Assembly: GCA_026393855.1 (NCBI GenBank) | Contig: JAPKZJ010000100.1 | Location: 1-46,443 of the forward strand | Source: Candidatus Aminicenantes bacterium | Lineage (GTDB): Bacteria > Acidobacteriota > Aminicenantia > Aminicenantales > UBA4085 | DNA length: 46,443 nucleotides | Reading direction: 5' to 3' | In this document: positions 1-46,443 of the stretch, one piece after another | Layout: the number at the start of each line of letters is the position of its first letter | Position numbering within the stretch: the stretch's first letter is position 1 | Notes under the pieces: generated by a model | Seen by the model: the letters and a program-made list of their open reading frames with translations, nothing else | Told to the model about the DNA's origin: nothing | Database searches by the model: none | Made by a program: the position numbers and the translations under genes

Positions 1-3
1 TGC

Positions 4-930
4 ATGATCGCAGTTGAGCATCTGGTCAAGAAATACGGTGATCTTGTCGCCGTCCGGGATCTGAGCTTCACGGTCGAGAAAGGCTGCATCTGGGGCCTGC
101 TCGGACCGAACGCGGCCGGCAAGACGACCACCATGCGCATCCTGACGGGCTTCCTCCCGGCCACAGACGGCAAGGCCTCGGTCGGCGGCTTCGACGTCTT
201 CAGCCAAGCCGACAAGGTCAAGCGGATCCTCGGCTACTTGCCCGAGATCCTGCCGCTCTACCCGGACCAGACGGTGACTGAGTACCTCGGGTTCATCGCC
301 GACCTCAAGAAGGTCCCGCCCGGCAAGAAAAAGGACGCCGTGGCCCGGGCCATCAAGGCCGCGGCGCTGGAGTCCGTTAAAGGCCGGCTGATCAAGAACA
401 TCTCGCGCGGGTTCAAGCAGCGGGTCGGCATCGCCCAGGCCTTGGTCCACGATCCCCAGGTCCTGATCCTGGACGAGCCGACGATCGGGCTCGACCCGGC
501 CCAGATTCGCGAGATCAGGGGCCTCATCCAATCGCTCAAGGGCGAACGGACGATCATCCTCTCGACCCACATCCTGGCCGAGGTCACCCAGACCTGCGAC
601 GGGGTGGTCATCATCAACGAGGGCCGGCTGAAGGCCTCGGGCTCGCTGGCCGAGCTGACCGCCTCGGTCGAGCACAAGGACGGCGTCGCCCTCAAGCTCC
701 GCCGGTCCGTGGACGAGGCGGCGGCCGCGTTGCGCGCCCTGCCTGGAGTGGAAATGGCGGCCCGCGAAGACGACGGCCTGCGGATCGAATGGAAGCCCGG
801 CGCCGACCTCCGCGACGAGGTCGTCCGGCTGGTCGTGGAGAAGGGCTTCGGCCTGCTGGAGATGCGGCCGATCACCATGAACATCGAGGACCTCTACCTC
901 AAGATCGTCTCCGGAGGGGTGGACCAATGA
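4..930 (+). CDS. Gld-type ABC transporter ATP-binding protein
   Basis: This is the cytoplasmic ATPase of an ABC-2 type exporter, powering the permease encoded immediately downstream. The 308-residue protein has a Walker A motif GPNAAGKTT (residues 34-42), a signature helix reading SRGFKQ (134-139) in place of canonical LSGGQ, Walker B VLILDE (153-158) and the switch His189 in STHIL. The Q-loop reads GYLPE, so glutamine is absent. Both deviations are usual in the GldA/CcmA-like branch. A C-terminal extension of about 85 residues follows the nucleotide-binding domain, as in GldA-like proteins. The stop overlaps the permease start (ATGA), so the two are translationally coupled. The gene starts 4 bases into the window, so its promoter and ribosome-binding site are not visible. 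Family assignment is firm; the substrate is unknown, and the Gld label does not imply gliding motility. Confidence 0.93.
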   Translation: MIAVEHLVKKYGDLVAVRDLSFTVEKGCIWGLLGPNAAGKTTTMRILTGFLPATDGKASVGGFDVFSQADKVKRILGYLPEILPLYPDQTVTEYLGFIADLKKVPPGKKKDAVARAIKAAALESVKGRLIKNISRGFKQRVGIAQALVHDPQVLILDEPTIGLDPAQIREIRGLIQSLKGERTIILSTHILAEVTQTCDGVVIINEGRLKASGSLAELTASVEHKDGVALKLRRSVDEAAAALRALPGVEMAAREDDGLRIEWKPGADLRDEVVRLVVEKGFGLLEMRPITMNIEDLYLKIVSGGVDQ

Positions 931-4636: not shown

Positions 4637-5530
4637 ATGAACCTGCTTCGTCATCGCCTCGCGACTGCGGCGCTTCTGTTGCCGCTGGCGTTCGCCGTTC
4701 CTCGGGCCGCGGCTCAGGATAGCAGCCTGCCCCGGCTTGAATTCTTCATCCGCGGCTCGCTCGCGCCTGCCGGGACCGGGACCACCATCGAACACGGCTA
4801 CGATCCCCATCCGGGATACGCCATCCCCGGCTCGTATGCCCGACAAACGCTTCGGTTCGACCCCCTGTCCGGATCGGGATTCGTCGCCGGCGTGACGGGC
4901 TTTTTCGGCCGGACCATCGGCTTGCGGCTTTCCGTCGGCTATGACCACAGCCCGATCGGCGGCGCCAATACGCCCTTTGAGATGGTCTATAAATACACCT
5001 CCTGGACGCCTTGGTCCGGATATGTCGACGGGACCTATACGGTCAATCAAGCCTGGCCGGAAACCGCCGGCGCGCTCCAAAGAGCTGCGGCCGGCTTGGA
5101 GCTCGTCGTCCGCCTCCCCTTGGGTCCGGGCATACGCTTGAATCTGACCGGCGGCCCGCTGCTTTCCCTGTCCGGCGGAGACATCCAATCCCTGGGCTAT
5201 ACCGATCTTTATTACGAGCGGTACGGAGCCTTGTTCTTCCACAGCTATTTCGTCCGGCTCCGACTCCCGGCCCGGGTTCGTCTAGGCCTCACCGGAGGAG
5301 CGGAGCTGGCCGTCCGCTTTGGCCGGCACCTATCGCTCATCCTGAACGCCACGGTCCGCAGCGGTTCCTATGAAGGCATCCCCGAGATAACGGCCGCTTA
5401 CGATTCGAACGGGCTACAGACCGCGGCGGCGGACATCCTCAGCCGCATAAAAGCCCGCATCGTCCCCCAGGCGGTCGTCCTCACGCCCTCGCCTTTTCTC
5501 TTCGGGGCCGGATTCGCTATCGTCTTGTGA
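4637..5530 (+). CDS. Outer-membrane beta-barrel-like protein, paralogue 1
   Basis: A 297-residue secreted protein with a clear signal peptide (residues 1-27, cleavage after AAAQ or near it) and alternating hydrophobic strands ending in a hydrophobic final strand (FLFGAGFAIVL), consistent with a small outer-membrane barrel. I recognise no named family. It is clearly paralogous to the protein at 6485-7369: both share YDPHPGY.IPGS, a following QTLR, a central YKYT.W, and a late YE..PEI.AA..S/YGL block. It begins 12 bases after the DUF4340 stop with a weak AGGA ribosome-binding site, so it is probably cotranscribed with the exporter. That would suggest an outer-membrane product or partner of the ABC system, which is inference. 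Confidence 0.72.
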   Translation: MNLLRHRLATAALLLPLAFAVPRAAAQDSSLPRLEFFIRGSLAPAGTGTTIEHGYDPHPGYAIPGSYARQTLRFDPLSGSGFVAGVTGFFGRTIGLRLSVGYDHSPIGGANTPFEMVYKYTSWTPWSGYVDGTYTVNQAWPETAGALQRAAAGLELVVRLPLGPGIRLNLTGGPLLSLSGGDIQSLGYTDLYYERYGALFFHSYFVRLRLPARVRLGLTGGAELAVRFGRHLSLILNATVRSGSYEGIPEITAAYDSNGLQTAAADILSRIKARIVPQAVVLTPSPFLFGAGFAIVL

Positions 5531-5548
5531 CGATCGGCGGCCTCGCGA

Positions 5549-6433
5549 TCAGAACGAGACGCGCAGGCCGATCTTGAGAAAGAAGCCGGAGAGATCGATC
5601 ACGGCATCGTGGACGACGGTGATTACGCCGCCGCTCCAGCCGCCGGGCAGGTTGAATCGCTTGTACGTGGTCTGCAAATAATCGACGTATTCCTCGAAAT
5701 AGAGAAGCGTGAAGTCGCGGGCGCCCTGCGGCTCGCCGTAATAGGTCTCCTCGTAGCGGCCGGTGAAGCCCGACAGCTTGGCCCTCCGGTAGCCCGCGTC
5801 CAAGATCAGGCCGAGCCGGCCGAAGACAGCCCAATCCAACGCCACGCCCGCCGTCCAGCCCAGGTTGAAGGCATGGGTGTCGGCCGTCCAGGCTTGAATC
5901 TGGTCGGATCCGCCGACGGCGTACGTTTCCGTCCGCGTTCCCGCGTCTTCGAAGGACGACCAATAGCCGTCCAGCCCGGCGTGCGGCCTGAGGCTGAGTT
6001 TGCCGGTCAGGGGAATGACATAAGTCAGGCCGAGCCGCGCGACGACGGCCCGGACCCGGTCGTCGCGCGTAAACTCTTCGGTCACCGTCCCCCACTCCAC
6101 GGCGAAGAGGTTGCCTTCGCTCGAAGCGCCGAGGAGGCCCGCGGAAGCGGACACGATCAGGCCCGAGCGCAGGGGGATGTCGACGGTCAGCTCGAACTCC
6201 TGCGCCCAGCGGATGGTCCGGGTCGTCTCGCGGGAGATCCCGACGCCCACGATGGCGTCGTAGGAACGGGGGAAATCGAGCATAAAATCGTTGTACTCCC
6301 GGGGCGCGACGAGCGACCAGCCGTTCGACACGCGGAGGGAGATGCGCTCGGCGCCGGCCGCGGCCGGCGGGGCGGCAACCAGGCAGGCGAGCGCGGCGAT
6401 GAGGAGCCACGGGCGGCAGGGGAATTTCGGCAT
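5549..6433 (-). CDS. Outer-membrane beta-barrel-like protein
   Basis: A 294-residue protein with a typical signal peptide (MPKFPCRPWLLIAALACLVAAPPAAAG) and amphipathic strands with aromatic girdle residues (W, Y, F). The terminal strand DLSGFFLKIGLRVSF ends in Phe, the classic last residue for BAM-recognised barrels. Length and architecture resemble the two flanking barrel proteins, but the shared YDPHPGY motif is absent, so it is at most a distant relative. It is transcribed towards paralogue 1 (convergent, 18-bp gap) and away from paralogue 2 (51-bp divergent gap). AAAGG lies just upstream of its ATG. Substrate or partner unknown. Confidence 0.7.
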   Translation of the reverse strand: MPKFPCRPWLLIAALACLVAAPPAAAGAERISLRVSNGWSLVAPREYNDFMLDFPRSYDAIVGVGISRETTRTIRWAQEFELTVDIPLRSGLIVSASAGLLGASSEGNLFAVEWGTVTEEFTRDDRVRAVVARLGLTYVIPLTGKLSLRPHAGLDGYWSSFEDAGTRTETYAVGGSDQIQAWTADTHAFNLGWTAGVALDWAVFGRLGLILDAGYRRAKLSGFTGRYEETYYGEPQGARDFTLLYFEEYVDYLQTTYKRFNLPGGWSGGVITVVHDAVIDLSGFFLKIGLRVSF

Positions 6434-6458
6434 TGACCTTTCCTTGATCCATCGGCAT

Positions 6459-6464
6459 TATAAT
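6459..6464 (+). promoter_or_regulatory. -10 element TATAAT upstream of barrel paralogue 2
   Basis: A perfect TATAAT lies 21 bases before the ATG at 6485, in the 51-bp divergent gap between two barrel genes, with AAGGAAG as ribosome-binding site between it and the start. The best -35 candidate, TTGACC at 6433-6438, is 20 bases away, longer than ideal, so only the -10 is called. Confidence 0.5.
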
Positions 6465-6484
6465 TGCTCGACGCAAGGAAGACA

Positions 6485-7369
6485 ATGAAGAAAGCCGTTC
6501 TCCTCCTTCTCCTTGGGGCCGCCCTGGCCCCGGCTTCTCTGCCCGCAGCCACGGAAACGCAGACGCGGCGAGCCCGTTTCTTTCTGACCGCGGGCTTCGG
6601 CCTGCCCGGCGGCGGGGCCGACTACTCTTTTTCCTATGATCCGCATCCCGGCTACGACATCCCCGGCTCCACGGCCGGTCAGACGCTGCGGGTGGAGCCG
6701 GCCCTCGGGCCTTCCCTGGAAGCGGGCTTCTTCCTTCCGCTCGGCCGCGCCTTCGGCCTCCGGTTGAGCTACGCTTGGGACCGATCGCCCTTGGGCGGAG
6801 AAAACGGCCCCTATGCGATGCTCTTCAAATACACCAACTGGTGGCCGCTCCTCGATCCCGTCCGGACGTCGCTTACGAAAACCACGGCCTGGGCTCCGAC
6901 CTTCGGCTCCCGGCAGGACGTGTCGATCGGGCTGGAGGTGTCTCTACGCTGGCCGATCGCGCGAGGCGTCGATCTTTCGTTTCTGGCCGGGCCCCGGCTT
7001 TTCTTCGCCTCCGGAAGTACGGGCGCCCTCGGCTACACCGAATACATGGGCAGCAGCCACGGCGCGCAGTTCTTCCGCGAGTATCTCCTGCGGCTGGATC
7101 TCCCGCCCCAGACCCGAATCGGCTGGACGGCCGGTGTGGAAGCCGAAGTGCGGCTTTCGACCGCGCTCTCGCTTCTTCTGCGGGCGGGATTCGCCTCCGC
7201 CGGCGCCTACGAAGCCGTGCCGGAGATCGCAGCGGCCGACGAGTATTATGGGCTGATCCCGGCCGACGAGCAGACGCTCGCCGCCATCCGCCGGGCCGTG
7301 GCCCTTCCCGCCTTGACCCTCCCGCTAGGGCGTTTCGAGCTGGCCTGCGGCCTCGCCTTAGGCCTTTGA
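6485..7369 (+). CDS. Outer-membrane beta-barrel-like protein, paralogue 2
   Basis: A 294-residue protein with signal peptide MKKAVLLLLLGAALAPASLPA. The ATG at 6485 is chosen over an in-frame TTG at 6464 because it has the AAGGAAG ribosome-binding site and opens directly into the signal peptide. It is paralogous to the protein at 4637-5530: shared YDPHPGYDIPGS, QTLRVEP, RSPLGGENGPY, LFKYTNWWP and YEAVPEIAAADEYYGL. Beta-strand-rich with a hydrophobic last strand (FELACGLALGL). The mutY gene follows one base after its stop. Likely in the outer membrane; no named family recognised. Confidence 0.72.
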   Translation: MKKAVLLLLLGAALAPASLPAATETQTRRARFFLTAGFGLPGGGADYSFSYDPHPGYDIPGSTAGQTLRVEPALGPSLEAGFFLPLGRAFGLRLSYAWDRSPLGGENGPYAMLFKYTNWWPLLDPVRTSLTKTTAWAPTFGSRQDVSIGLEVSLRWPIARGVDLSFLAGPRLFFASGSTGALGYTEYMGSSHGAQFFREYLLRLDLPPQTRIGWTAGVEAEVRLSTALSLLLRAGFASAGAYEAVPEIAAADEYYGLIPADEQTLAAIRRAVALPALTLPLGRFELACGLALGL

Positions 7370-7370
7370 C

Positions 7371-8480
7371 ATGGCTGCGGCTGAGCAGGGATTCGTCCGC
7401 GGGCTCCTCGGCTGGTATGGCCGCAACAAGCGCGACCTGCCTTGGCGCGGCGCTACGGACCCCTATGCCGTCTGGGTTTCCGAGATCATGCTTCAGCAGA
7501 CGACGGTCGGCGCCGTTATCCCCTATTACCAGCGCTGGCTCAAGAGATTCCCGGACATCGAATCTCTGGCCCGGGCGCCTTTGAGCCGAATCCTGAAAGC
7601 CTGGCAAGGATTGGGCTATTACCAGCGGGCCCGCAATCTCCGCGCCGCCGCCAAGATTGTGGTCGAGCGCCACGGGGGACGCCTTCCGGAAACCGAGGCG
7701 GATCTTCGGGCCCTGCCCGGATTCGGCCAATACACGACCGCCGCTGTGGCCAGCATCGCTTTCGGCCGCCGGATTCCCCTGGTCGACGCCAATGTCCGCC
7801 GCGTCCTGATGCGGATCTTCGAGCTGGCGGGGTCCGCCGCGGCCCGCAACGATCCCGCCCTGCTCGAGCGTCTGGCGCCGCTCGTCCCGGCCCGGCGGCC
7901 CGGCGACTTCAATCAGGCTTTGATGGAGCTGGGCGCCCTGATCTGCCGTCCGATGAATCCGGCCTGCCTGCGCTGCCCGGTCCGACTCGATTGCCTGGCC
8001 TTCGCCGCCGGCCGGCAGGAAGTCATCCCGGCGCCCGTCCGGCGCAGCACCAGAAAGCTCACGGCGGTAGTTGGAATCATCGAGCGGGACGGCAGGATCC
8101 TCATCCAACAGAGGCCGTCCGAGGGGCTCTTGGGGGGGCTCTGGGAATTTCCCGGCGGCAAGGTGCGCCCGGGCGAATCGCTTCCGGCCGCCCTGGCCCG
8201 CGAGCTCGCGGAGGAGATCGGGGCCGGGCCAAAGGCGGTCCGGCCGTTCATGACGGTCGACCACTCTTACACTCGGTTTCGGGTGACCCTCCACGCGTTC
8301 ACATGCGGCTTGCGGACCGATCCGGCGCCCGATCGGAGCTGGCGATGGGTCCGGCCGGCCGATCTGCGGAAATACCCGGTCCCCTCCGGCAGCGCCCGCA
8401 TCGTGGAAAAGATTATCGAGAGCCGGCGGTCCGGCCCAGCTCGTCGAGCTCGGCCAGCCGGAACCGGACGCTCAGAATGA
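7371..8480 (+). CDS. mutY: A/G-specific adenine glycosylase MutY with Nudix-type C-domain
   Basis: DNA repair glycosylase that removes adenine mispaired with 8-oxoguanine. In the 369-residue protein the catalytic Glu38 sits in WVSEIMLQQT, the helix-hairpin-helix is LPGFGQYT (115-122), the catalytic Asp139 is in VDANVRRVL, and the [4Fe-4S] cluster ligands Cys192, Cys199, Cys202 and Cys208 keep the C-X6-C-X2-C-X5-C spacing. The C-terminal 8-oxoG recognition domain (about 228-350) retains a complete Nudix box from Gly263 to Ala285 (GX5EX7RELXEEXGX), which is often degraded in MutY. The gene starts one base after the barrel gene stop. Its last 68 bases overlap the 3' end of the convergent sialidase-like gene, so the final ~20 residues (Arg/Ala-rich) lie beyond the usual MutY end. 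Confidence 0.95.
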   Translation: MAAAEQGFVRGLLGWYGRNKRDLPWRGATDPYAVWVSEIMLQQTTVGAVIPYYQRWLKRFPDIESLARAPLSRILKAWQGLGYYQRARNLRAAAKIVVERHGGRLPETEADLRALPGFGQYTTAAVASIAFGRRIPLVDANVRRVLMRIFELAGSAAARNDPALLERLAPLVPARRPGDFNQALMELGALICRPMNPACLRCPVRLDCLAFAAGRQEVIPAPVRRSTRKLTAVVGIIERDGRILIQQRPSEGLLGGLWEFPGGKVRPGESLPAALARELAEEIGAGPKAVRPFMTVDHSYTRFRVTLHAFTCGLRTDPAPDRSWRWVRPADLRKYPVPSGSARIVEKIIESRRSGPARRARPAGTGRSE

Positions 8481-9591
8481 ACGGCTCCTCATCCGGCCGC
8501 CAGTGGCCGTAGGTCGTAGCGACAAAAGTGCCGTCGGGCAGAATCTCGACGCCGGGATAAGCGCAGTCGGCCAAGACGAGGTTGTCTTTCAACCGGACAA
8601 GGTATTGGCCGGGACGGCCGGCGACGAGATCGTCGAAGGTCCCGACCCAGGCCGCCCAATCGCCTTCGTAGGGAGAGGTCTTGCCTTGGGGCGAGATGGA
8701 CCGGAAGGACACGACCAGCCGCCCGTCCGGCGCATACTTGCCGGTGTGCCGGTCGCCGTTTAAAGCGTCGGGCAGGTCGCGCGGCGCGCTCCAAGTCCTG
8801 CCTTCGTCTTCCGAGAAGATGATCTGGGAGTTCCGGCGCCGCAGATTCTCCCGCAGCAGAACGGCCAGCCGCTTCCCGTCCGGGGAACGGACCAAGCCGG
8901 GCTCGCAAAGATGGATTTCGCTCGAACGGAAGATCGTCTCCGGCCGCGACCAGGACAGGCCGCCGTCTTCGGAAAAGGTCTTGAGCAGGGTCATGACGGG
9001 CGGCTTCTCGACGGCCGCCTCCTTGGCCAGGAATCGTCCATCATCGTGGAAGAGGGCCATATAGCGCCCGCGCTGGGGCCCAACGGCCGCAACACTGCCC
9101 ATGACGACGATGCCGCCCCACTCGCCGATCGGCGCCAGCTCGGACCAGGTCCGGCCGTCGTCCTCCGAACGGGCCATCCGAGCGGGATAGAGGCCCGAGA
9201 ACAGGATCAGACGCCTGGCCCCGTCGGGCCGGACGACACGGTGAATCGTGGGTGTTTCCAGGCTCGTCGCCCAGCTATCCGGCGTGGGTTGGCGGTCGCT
9301 CCAGGTCCGGCCGCCGTCGAAGCTCTTTTTGTAGACGATCGGACCTTTGCCGTGCCCCTTAGGGTAGACGCAGAGGATGGTCCGCCCATCCTCGAGGAGG
9401 CAGGTCGTGGGATGCCCGAGATACTGGCCTTTTTCGATGTCCACCACGACCTGGCGGCTGGCGTCCTTGTCAAGATCGATCAGACGGACGGACGCCTCAG
9501 GCCGGCCAGCGGCGCCGCCCCCGGCCGCCGCGACGAACATCGCCAGCAGCGCGGCGCCCGTCAACCTAAACCGCGCCGTTCGCCCGCTCAT
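8413..9591 (-). CDS. Secreted sialidase-like (BNR/Asp-box) six-bladed propeller protein
   Basis: A 392-residue protein with an N-terminal signal peptide (LTGAALLAMFVAAAGGG) and a beta-propeller marked by four Asp-boxes: SFDGGRTW (90-97), SEDDGRTW (142-149), SEDGGLSW (207-214) and SEDEGRTW (260-267). This is the fold of exo-alpha-sialidases and related glycosidases; an N-terminal YLGHPTTCLLEDGRTILCVY strand pair matches the sialidase-like family found in carbohydrate-degrading bacteria. A true sialic-acid activity is not proven because the Arg triad cannot be verified by eye. It starts 9 bases after the stop of the gene at 9600-10457 with no good ribosome-binding site, suggesting translational coupling, and its 3' end overlaps mutY by 68 bp. 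Confidence 0.8.
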   Translation of the reverse strand: MSGRTARFRLTGAALLAMFVAAAGGGAAGRPEASVRLIDLDKDASRQVVVDIEKGQYLGHPTTCLLEDGRTILCVYPKGHGKGPIVYKKSFDGGRTWSDRQPTPDSWATSLETPTIHRVVRPDGARRLILFSGLYPARMARSEDDGRTWSELAPIGEWGGIVVMGSVAAVGPQRGRYMALFHDDGRFLAKEAAVEKPPVMTLLKTFSEDGGLSWSRPETIFRSSEIHLCEPGLVRSPDGKRLAVLLRENLRRRNSQIIFSEDEGRTWSAPRDLPDALNGDRHTGKYAPDGRLVVSFRSISPQGKTSPYEGDWAAWVGTFDDLVAGRPGQYLVRLKDNLVLADCAYPGVEILPDGTFVATTYGHWRPDEEPFILSVRFRLAELDELGRTAGSR

Positions 9592-43400: not shown

Positions 43401-43790
43401 CTAGCGCGGCACCGCCGGGGGCGTCAATCGCATCCGGAACGGCTTGTCGCGGTCGCAGACCAGCCGGCCGTCGATGACCTCCAACTCCGCCGCCTGAAGG
43501 GCGGTGTGCCGGTTCGAGAAAGGCGAAACGCCGTCGCGCTCGGGCGCCTTCTCCGTGAACGGGTGCGTGAAGTAGATGATGTAGGCCTTCTCCCCGCAGA
43601 CGACGACGTCGGCATGCTTGCCGATGGTCCCGTCGCTGTTCCGAGTTCCGGACTTATCCAGGATCTTCCCCTGATAAGTCCACGTGTCGAGATTGTCGGA
43701 TCGATAGACGTCCAGCCCGCTATTGGGGTCCTTGATCAGCCAATTATGGCCTTTGAAACGACGCGAAGGATTTTCATGTATAGACCTTGA
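43401..43790 (-). pseudogene. C-terminal remnant of a five-bladed-propeller glycosidase (GH43/GH117-type)
   Basis: On the minus strand, the frame that continues straight after the radical SAM stop at 43791-43793 reads about 128 codons without interruption to TAG at 43401-43403, but has no usable start. The product ends in a glycosidase-like tail: HNWLIKDPNSGLDVYRSDN, GKILDKSGTRNSDGTIGKHADVVV, AYIIYFTHPFTEKAPERDG, and RHTALQAAELEV. The HADVVV plus IIYFTHP blocks are typical of the last blades of five-bladed-propeller glycosidases. The N-terminal ~200 residues are missing. It is therefore a truncated remnant, not a gene. Family identity (GH43, GH117 or GH130) is uncertain. Confidence 0.65.
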
Positions 43791-45749
43791 TCAAGTCTCC
43801 GGAATCTCGGAGAAACGCGACCAGAGCGCCTCCGGCGGGAAGTACTCGAACCCCAGCGGAACGGCCAGGCTGAGGATCTGGTCCTTCTCCTCGATGAGGA
43901 GATCAGCGTCCAGAAGCGGCTGAAGGACCGCTGGCAGGGCTTCCTCAGCCATCTCTCCCCCGGTTTCCGCGCCCAGCAGCCTCCGAAGATCGGATCGAGT
44001 CCGGATCTCTTCGCAGGCTTCGTAAGCCCGGCGCTGCAAGCCGGTTAGGACATGGACCGAGGTCGCGGCTCCGGGCCGGAAATCGCAGATGACGAGCCGG
44101 TCCGGTTCGTCGAGAGAGATGAGGGCGGAACCGGCCGCGGCTTGAGTCCATTGCCCGATGGCTTCGAGAAGCCTTGCCGTCAGAGGGGCGATGGACGGAT
44201 CGGTATCGTCGTCGGCGTCGAAATAATAGGCCAGATTCCGGATCGCGCTCTCGTCCAAACCCGAATAGATGAAGCGATAGAGGGGGGAAGGCCGCAAGTT
44301 GCGCAGCCCGAAGTCGGTTGGCCGCATCTGGAAGAGGCTGTAGCGGTCGATCCGAACCCGGCTGACCCTGGCCGGGGGGGTCAGATGGGAAATCGCCTTG
44401 AGAATCCGGAGGCCTTCCAGGTATTCCTCCGGCCGCTCGCCGGGCATGCCGTAGAGATAGTACCAGATCGGGAAGACCCCGAATTGTTTGCACCATTTCA
44501 GGAGTCGGACGTTCTGGAGCGGTGTGACGCCCTTCCTCATGCGCTTGAGCGCGGCCCGGCTGAGGCTCTCGATACCGGGCTGGATCTCCCGCAGGCCCGC
44601 CCGCCGGGCCGCCCGGACCTGGTCCTTCGTCAGGTCGGATCGGACATAGTAGAAGATCTCCGGCTGCAATCCGGACCGCTCGAGCAGGGGGAAGAACGTC
44701 TCCGGAAAGCTCTTGGGCAGAATGGTGTCGGCAGCCCGCAGGCTGCGGGTTCGGAAGCCGTACCGGTCGAGCATCGAGGCGAACTCCTCGAGCGCCCGGG
44801 GCGCCGATTTCTGGCGATAAGCCAGGGCGTTGACGTTGAGCCCGCAGAAAGCGCACTGGGATTTCTGGCCCCACCAGCAACCGCGCGAGGTTTCGACAAC
44901 CAGATGGAGCTTGCCGATTTCGGGATTCGGATAATGCTCGCGCTGGGCGAAGAAATCGTCGCCATCCGGGTATGGAAGCCCGTCGAGATCGGCGATCGTG
45001 GCTGCCGTCACGGCCGCGGGATCGGCCGTCTCCCGATGCAGGATGCCCGGAATATCTCCCGGAGATCGCTTCTCGAGGATGGCGGTCGCGAGAGCCGCGA
45101 ACACATCTTCCCCTTCTCCCAGGCAGACCGCATCGATGAACGGGAAAGCCTTGAATAAGGCCACCCCCATATCGCCCCGGCAGTTTCCCCCGCCGAAAGC
45201 GACGAAGATTCCGGGGTATTTTTCCTTTAGGCGCCGGGCCAAGCCGAGCGAAGAGATCAGCTGTTGGCATTGGCAAGAAAACCCGACGATTCGATACTCC
45301 TGCCAAGAGACTCTTTCCAGGCAGTCCTCGATGAATAGGGTCGCCTCTCGGCGGCACATCGCCAGCATCTGCTCGATTTCGATTCCGTCCTTCCGCTGGT
45401 AGTCTCCCGTATCCTCCTGAACCCGGCTCTCGGCGATCCGGCGAAGATAGCCGGAGTCCCTCGCCTCGTCCCGCCCCCACAGCGATTCCACAAACATCCA
45501 ATCGCCCGCCGCGGCATCCCGCGCCAGGAGGTCGAGCTCGCCGCAGGTCTCCAGGCCGATTCTCTCGGCAAAAGGAATGTTTAGATAGAGGTTGGCGCAA
45601 GGGATGTCATGCCTGGCGAGGTCGGCCTTGAGCAGGCTGATGCCCAGCGCGGGGCGATCCACAGCGAAGAGCGGCATGTTGACTAGGGCCACGGGCGCGG
45701 GAGCGATATCGGGAAAGAAGTTGTCGATGGGGTCGTTCACTCGGGGCAT
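43791..45749 (-). CDS. B12-binding radical SAM protein, RiPP-maturation type
   Basis: A 652-residue protein. Residues ~20-230 form a cobalamin-binding-like domain (IVGFSCQCQQLISSLGLARRL, FVAFGGGNCRGDMG, VCLGEGEDVFAAL). The radical SAM motif is Cys291-X7-Cys299-X2-Cys302 in SRGCWWGQKSQCAFCGLN, the GCWWG/C-X7-C-X2-C form of the bacteriocin/RiPP maturation family that C-methylates ribosomal peptides. The C-terminal third ends with a winged-helix-like module (VLTGLQRRAYEACEEIRT, LLDADLLIEEKDQILSLAVP) resembling a peptide recognition element. A paralogue lies 31 bp upstream, and no precursor peptide is in the window. No good ribosome-binding site: TTGACT (45784-45779) and CATAAT (45763-45758) form a poor-spacing promoter, suggesting a near-leaderless start. 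Confidence 0.86.
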   Translation of the reverse strand: MPRVNDPIDNFFPDIAPAPVALVNMPLFAVDRPALGISLLKADLARHDIPCANLYLNIPFAERIGLETCGELDLLARDAAAGDWMFVESLWGRDEARDSGYLRRIAESRVQEDTGDYQRKDGIEIEQMLAMCRREATLFIEDCLERVSWQEYRIVGFSCQCQQLISSLGLARRLKEKYPGIFVAFGGGNCRGDMGVALFKAFPFIDAVCLGEGEDVFAALATAILEKRSPGDIPGILHRETADPAAVTAATIADLDGLPYPDGDDFFAQREHYPNPEIGKLHLVVETSRGCWWGQKSQCAFCGLNVNALAYRQKSAPRALEEFASMLDRYGFRTRSLRAADTILPKSFPETFFPLLERSGLQPEIFYYVRSDLTKDQVRAARRAGLREIQPGIESLSRAALKRMRKGVTPLQNVRLLKWCKQFGVFPIWYYLYGMPGERPEEYLEGLRILKAISHLTPPARVSRVRIDRYSLFQMRPTDFGLRNLRPSPLYRFIYSGLDESAIRNLAYYFDADDDTDPSIAPLTARLLEAIGQWTQAAAGSALISLDEPDRLVICDFRPGAATSVHVLTGLQRRAYEACEEIRTRSDLRRLLGAETGGEMAEEALPAVLQPLLDADLLIEEKDQILSLAVPLGFEYFPPEALWSRFSEIPET

Positions 45750-45780
45750 GTCGGGAAATTATGCCATCGCAGGGACGGAG

Positions 45781-46443
45781 TCAAGGCTGGAGAACGGGAA
45801 AGAGATCGGAGACCTCCGCCATGCGGGGCCAGACGGGCTCGGGGGGGAAATACTCGAAGCCCAGCGGGACGGCCAGGCTGAGATACCGGCCGTTCTCCTC
45901 GATCATCAAGCCGTGCTCCAGCAGAGGGGCCGCGAGCGAGACCAGGTCCTCGTCTTTCGCCTCCCGTCCCCGATCGGCGGACAGAAGCTTCCGCAGGTAC
46001 GCGCCGCTCCGGATCTGATCACAGGCCTCATAGATCCGGCGCTGGGAACCGGTCAGGATAAAGAGGGGCTTGCGGGCGCAGGGGCGGAAATCGCAGATCA
46101 AAAGCCGTTCCCCTTCCTCCAGCGAAAACAAGGCGGATCGCCCGGCCTGCTCGGTCCAGTCCCGAACGGCCAGGAGGAGGTCCCGGGAGCGGGCCTCGAG
46201 ATCGTCCTGCGCCGCGAATTCGCCGACGAAATAATAGGCCAGCTCTTGGAGGGCCTGTTCGTCCAAGCCCGGGTAGACATGCCGATAGAAGGGCGAAGGG
46301 CGGAGGTTGCGCAGACCGAAGTCCGCGGGGCGGGCGAGATGAGGGCTGAAGCGGTCGAGGCGGATGGGCCTGGCTTCGTAAGGCGGCTGAAGATGCGATA
46401 TCAGGGGGATGAGACGGAGCGGACGCCGATAGTCGCCGGCCTT
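45781..46443 (-). CDS. Second RiPP-type B12-binding radical SAM protein, partial
   Basis: The last ~220 residues of a paralogue of the preceding gene; the reading frame is open to the window edge. Shared blocks: DFGLRNLRPSPFYRHVYPGLDE, LAYYF, RLLICDFRP, LTGSQRRIYEACDQIR, and the terminal YLSLAVPLGFEYFPPEPVW. The catalytic C-X7-C-X2-C motif and the B12-binding domain would be beyond the window, so activity cannot be checked. Protein-level similarity to the downstream copy is high over the whole overlap, indicating tandem duplication. It is upstream in the same orientation and probably the first of the two genes in one operon. Confidence 0.85.
   Translation of the reverse strand, partial: KAGDYRRPLRLIPLISHLQPPYEARPIRLDRFSPHLARPADFGLRNLRPSPFYRHVYPGLDEQALQELAYYFVGEFAAQDDLEARSRDLLLAVRDWTEQAGRSALFSLEEGERLLICDFRPCARKPLFILTGSQRRIYEACDQIRSGAYLRKLLSADRGREAKDEDLVSLAAPLLEHGLMIEENGRYLSLAVPLGFEYFPPEPVWPRMAEVSDLFPVLQP

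Follow-up and report, generated by a model that had tools for sequence, protein, structure and literature searches.

Two B12 radical SAM C-methyltransferases with an unusual Cx7Cx2C motif, PoyB and PoyC, are encoded in the polytheonamide cluster, and the cysteine spacing of the complete enzyme described here is the same as that reported for PoyC (PMC5682303, PMC11285071). In the aminopyruvatide pathway, the B12 radical SAM enzyme ApyD, which is reported to contain an RRE, β-methylates a tyrosine (PMC11117315). A C-terminal RRE has also been reported for proteusin epimerases of the PoyD type (PMC8326336). The C-terminal domains in the present study resemble it; however, the PoyD-type enzymes catalyze epimerization, not methyl transfer, and have been described with only a radical SAM cluster and no cobalamin, unlike the family examined here. 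A comparison with the radical SAM enzymes of poly-cyclopropylglycine (PMC9062424) was set aside because these are SPASM-type enzymes.

The window that we analyzed (46,443 nucleotides) is the whole of contig C100 of a 3.68-Mb Aminicenantes genome in 144 contigs, and the end of the window is the contig end. Two genes, designated A and B, are located at this end (Table 1). Compared by description rather than alignment, the locus resembles the polytheonamide cluster in its pair of enzymes and in the Cx7Cx2C motif of B. However, no nitrile-hydratase-type precursor or epimerase was recognized at this locus. It also differs from the ApyD system: B scored 51.5 bits against the ApyD cut-off of 750 bits, and no MNIO or P450 gene was recognized near the putative operon.

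Table 1. Features of the putative operon on contig C100 (the window) and contig C81
Feature	Contig	Position	Strand	Remarks
rSAM B, predicted B12-dependent radical SAM peptide C-methyltransferase	C100	43791..45749	-	652 aa, ATG start, complete
B12-binding domain of B	C100	45087..45395	-	Residues 119-221; PF02310, 35.3 bits (cut-off 32.1)
Radical SAM domain of B	C100	44415..44894	-	Residues 286-445; PF04055, 43.4 bits, above cut-off
Cx7Cx2C cluster motif of B, CWWGQKSQCAFC	C100	44844..44879	-	Residues 291-302; kept in homologues
RRE-like winged-helix domain, C-terminus of B	C100	43863..44129	-	Residues ~541-629; predicted model
Gap between A and B	C100	45750..45780	-	31 bp
rSAM A, last 220 aa only	C100	45781..46443	-	Open at contig end; TIGR03975, 129.6 bits, profile 418-606
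RRE-like winged-helix domain, C-terminus of A	C100	45874..46137	-	Residues 103-190 of fragment; AlphaFold2 model
Probable N-terminal 262 aa of A	C81 (L009)	3-788	-	TIGR03975, 238.3 bits, profile 1-249
Precursor candidate ORF, 127 aa	C81	816-1199	-	ATG start, AAGGAGG ribosome site; 27 bp upstream of A
Promoter-like TTGACA-17-TAGAAT, sigma-70 type	C81	1262-1234	-	11/12 consensus; upstream of 127-aa ORF

Enzymes A and B

The TIGR03975 profile spans all of B (577.9 bits, E 2.4e-173, profile positions 1-606 of 606). This score is approximately twice the curated cut-off of 281.85 bits, which places B in the family. The cobalamin-binding domain of B is N-terminal to its radical SAM domain, as is characteristic of this family, and the cysteines of the cluster motif (C291-x7-C299-x2-C302) are found within GCWWGQKSQCAFCG. 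The structural model of B, built from a five-row alignment (mean pLDDT 68.9), resembled the B12 radical SAM enzymes OxsB, TokK, TsrM, and CysS (Foldseek E 2.9e-8 to 2.1e-5).

The window contains only the C-terminal piece of A, which starts at approximately B residue 442 and shares about 50-51% identity with B (208 aa, E 3e-67). A probable N-terminal piece on contig C81 is about 46-47% identical to B; its PF02310 score of 30.2 bits is just under the cut-off. Both pieces of A fall below the TIGR03975 cut-off because they are incomplete. The initial annotation described two adjacent paralogues of a RiPP-type B12 radical SAM family with a long shared C-terminus. The adjacency on the minus strand and the shared C-terminus (51% identity) were both confirmed, whereas the second copy is a C-terminal piece in the window and the Cx7Cx2C motif was seen in B alone. 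The assignment to the RiPP-type family also held, based on the TIGR03975 matches, the RRE-like C-terminal domain, and the RiPP precursors and maturases beside homologues. Therefore, A and B belong to a known family, the RiPP B12 radical SAM C-methyltransferases, with a predicted activity.

The C-terminal fragment of A, modeled alone, yielded a confident winged domain of three strands and three helices, corresponding to the three-stranded sheet and three helices within 80-90 residues of the RRE fold. Foldseek alone found no match below E 0.001 for this domain. The three best matches obtained with VIA-align 2 were 5v1v, 5v1u, and 6jx3 (Z 9.5, 9.3, and 8.7; 77-80 residues aligned, rmsd 2.2-2.4), all of them lasso-peptide RREs with bound leader. 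DNA-binding winged helices ranked directly below them (Z ≤8.4), and since these scores are close, the fold alone is no proof of RRE function. The RRE structures were matched using the model of A; in the model of B, the three strands, three helices, and wing occur in the same order (mean pLDDT per block, 83-91 for the greater part of the domain). As judged from these models, the C-terminal domains of A and B are RRE-like in fold and may bind a leader.

Relatives and genomic context of homologues

TIGR03975-type matches at 1e-60 were present in 25 of the 396 Acidobacteriota genomes and, within the class, in 5 of 142, with the host (G000) included in both counts. The best foreign match among the 396 genomes was well under the identity between A and B. 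One match was located in the same-order genome G030 (7126-8946 of its contig). The enzymes of the operon were absent from two same-genus genomes, which suggests acquisition or loss in the others; the operon looks to have been acquired by the host or lost from its same-genus relatives. Homologues on plasmids shared approximately 31-37% identity among the matches listed, a search of Bacteroidota for closer relatives of A gave 37% at best, and no homologue was found in the viral contigs searched. A search of genome contigs with a two-row alignment recovered only three distant loci.

A and B grouped as sisters (support 100/100) in the tree built from 26 proteins, in agreement with the tandem duplication proposed earlier. 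Paired or arrayed TIGR03975 copies were also present in G326, G118, and a Thermoanaerobaculia MAG. The array in G118 (L064, 5005-17963 of its contig C53) comprises five TIGR03975-like genes within 13 kb and another apparent radical SAM gene, and the copy at 5005-6957 has nine residues, not seven, between the first two cysteines (CWWGQDKTDGC). A three-gene unit encoding a subtilase (PF00082), a TIGR03975 enzyme, and a small protein (136-148 aa) was common to L013 (5216-9458, G030, Aminicenantes) and L014 (6138-10270, Bacteroidales); the one small protein tested had no Pfam match. The enzymes of these two loci grouped as sisters with 100/100 support, which suggests interphylum transfer.

RiPP-like contexts of homologues included an NHLP precursor, YcaO, and MvdD-type and other ATP-grasp genes. 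An Os1348/NHLP peptide was located 6 bp upstream of one homologue; another adjoined Nif11 precursors and an epimerase, one a pheganomycin-type precursor, and one CefA and a SPASM maturase. No RiPP partner was seen beside some homologues, such as that of Niallia. At L056, a Cys-rich 134-aa ORF with a repeated QQPCVA (8077-8481) lies immediately upstream of the TIGR03975 gene and is a likely precursor; it had no meaningful Pfam or NCBIfam match. At the Acidobacteriota loci L048, L050, L052, L053, L057, and L062, the TIGR03975 gene adjoins a large gene. Some of these large genes start like Ser/Thr protein kinases (GGMGEVYRA).

Putative precursor gene and its surroundings

The 127-aa ORF upstream of A (MNHDESKDDFLADAVGDSPVSERRRFLVVAAKFSAVMAAVGLGGKAVLGEPAPAAGAETMSFNLIQQAIQTGDMEGAIRSYKTEVNLQEFHFKALRSLTSQDLGDLRRIQGKLEAGGGKFGLIWKKI) has a coding-like GC content by codon position (0.59/0.42/0.75). 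Its N-terminus, SERRRFLVV followed by FLVVAAKFSAVMAAV (mean hydropathy 2.16), is similar to a twin-arginine signal. A motif of this type with a hydrophobic stretch occurred in 4 of 20,000 shuffles of the sequence, the Pfam Tat-signal model gave a subthreshold score of 14.0 bits (cut-off 24), and the host genome encodes TatC. Cleavage of a double-glycine leader was considered and rejected: although there is a GGG close to the C-terminus, inspection by eye showed no fit to the hydrophobic positions of the canonical motif.

The ORF had no match in NCBIfam even at E 10, including the NHLP, Os1348, and Nif11 leader models. The same search placed the peptide beside the Thermoanaerobaculia homologue above the NHLP cut-off and the Ruegeria peptide above the Os1348 cut-off. 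The ORF is unlike the partners observed beside TIGR03975 homologues in matching none of their families (NHLP, Nif11, Os1348, pheganomycin, and CefA). A comparison with small ORFs adjoining other TIGR03975 genes gave nothing below E 0.19. No convincing homologue was found in 99 relatives or 396 genomes of the phylum, and none on plasmids; therefore, no conservation backs the ORF as a precursor. Weak matches in G075, G161, and G400 (E 0.006-0.009) fell in frames of 591-775 codons and were attributed to chance or to signal-like similarity.

These findings may be read differently: A and B are RiPP C-methyltransferases, while the ORF encodes an unrelated Tat-type exported protein and the true precursor is located elsewhere or in an unannotated short ORF. 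The absence of a precursor family and homologues is in line with this reading, as is the RRRFL motif with a hydrophobic stretch, which is not a usual RiPP leader. However, we regard it as rather unlikely because the ORF is on the same strand as A, immediately before it, with its own promoter-like site and Shine-Dalgarno sequence, and because a precursor is located directly upstream of the TIGR03975 gene in some relatives. We consider the 127-aa ORF to be the best precursor candidate on sequence grounds; if it is the precursor, it would form a three-gene operon with A and B.

The neighboring genes on C81 encode a flavodoxin-fold reductase, an HD-domain protein, seryl-tRNA synthetase, a DapA-like lyase, β-galactosidase, and M1/M24 peptidases. 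The initial annotation had placed the rest of the cluster beyond position 46443, including a short ORF with a leader and a transporter. A short ORF upstream of A was indeed present on C81, without a match to known precursor or leader families, and no dedicated peptide exporter or protease was recognized near it on this contig. Two C39 peptidases are encoded in the genome, both on other contigs, and ABC-2-type transporter genes are located at the opposite end of the window, approximately 42 kb from the operon. Another reading, which we hold to be unlikely, is that the ORF encodes a RiPP precursor with a Tat signal. Two B12 radical SAM enzymes, each with an RRE, would bind and C-methylate the peptide in the cytoplasm, and the Tat system would then export it whole. 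Whole-peptide export would explain the absence of a dedicated transporter and peptidase. A link between radical SAM peptide maturation and Tat export was not found described in open-licence full texts.

A start-less open frame of approximately 129 codons (WLIKDPNSGLDVYRSDNLDTWTYQGKILDKSG...) directly follows the stop codon of B (window 43401-43790, minus strand). By eye, it looks like what is left of the C-terminus of a glycoside-hydrolase-like protein, which the arrival of the operon may have truncated.

Gene A and the putative contig joint

The two pieces of A are complementary on the TIGR03975 profile, their orientations agree, and each is at a contig end. Approximately 165 aa (~0.5 kb) are absent between them, and the region of the cysteine motif falls in this assembly gap. 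The simplest reading is that A is a single gene across the gap between C100 and C81, as judged from the complementarity of the fragments. The spacing between A and B is consistent with a single transcript. Conserved synteny for the joint was sought in close relatives: the flanking flavodoxin-fold gene was unmatched in six of them, and the flanking histidine kinase had distant matches only.

It is improbable that the two pieces instead belong to two different paralogues, both truncated at contig ends, with at least three maturases in the genome and the small ORF derived from another cluster. No sequence crosses the joint, and the five copies in G118 demonstrate that such arrays exist. However, the complementarity and consistent orientation of the pieces and their similar identities to B (46 and 50%) argue for a single gene. 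Moreover, the initial annotation suggested a search for a third maturase, and no third close copy was found on any other contig of the genome.

B has diverged faster than A (branch lengths 0.82 and 0.29), and its departures from the consensus include N342T, E368Y, and a tyrosine at consensus N430. One survey discounted the clusters called by the TIGR03975 rule, regarding them as likely false positives (PMC9426513). We nevertheless consider it very improbable that the pair has left peptide maturation, with B carrying altered active-site residues and acting on another substrate or decaying, because B retains an open frame, the cysteine motif, the B12 domain, and the RRE-like domain, and its 17 departures in 120 conserved columns are within the range of the family, other members of which reach 20.

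Discussion

We consider it probable that the locus is the downstream part of a three-gene RiPP operon split over two contigs, in which A and B methylate the product of the 127-aa ORF. The putative gene order is the precursor candidate (C81 1199-816), A (from C81 788 over the gap to window 45781), and B (45749-43791). A sigma-70 promoter would drive the expression of the small protein, the ribosome site of which is strong. A and B would bind this protein through their RRE-like C-terminal domains. In each enzyme, a [4Fe-4S] cluster and SAM would generate a 5'-deoxyadenosyl radical, which would abstract hydrogen from a residue at an unactivated carbon; the methyl group would then come from methylcobalamin. 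By analogy with PoyB and PoyC, for which this activity is established, A and B should act as cobalamin-dependent sp3-carbon methyltransferases, and the duplicates most likely methylate different positions, following the PoyB/PoyC pattern. The modified peptide would then be matured and exported.

The initial annotation raised the possibility of new RiPP chemistry. The analysis did not support this, and the enzymes are ordinary: paired enzymes with this motif are known from polytheonamide (PMC11285071), and tandem copies occur in other Acidobacteriota. What is new, and uncertain, is the putative precursor, which has a Tat-like signal and lacks relatives; if genuine, it is the part of interest.

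With these enzymes, a known family gains a member from a lineage of uncultured Aminicenantes. If the Tat-like front end of the small protein is real, it would join radical SAM peptide maturation to the Tat export route. The locus represents a minimal testable system, in which a single putative precursor is accompanied by a methyltransferase in two diverged copies. This system would make it possible to examine how target residues are divided between duplicated B12 radical SAM enzymes.
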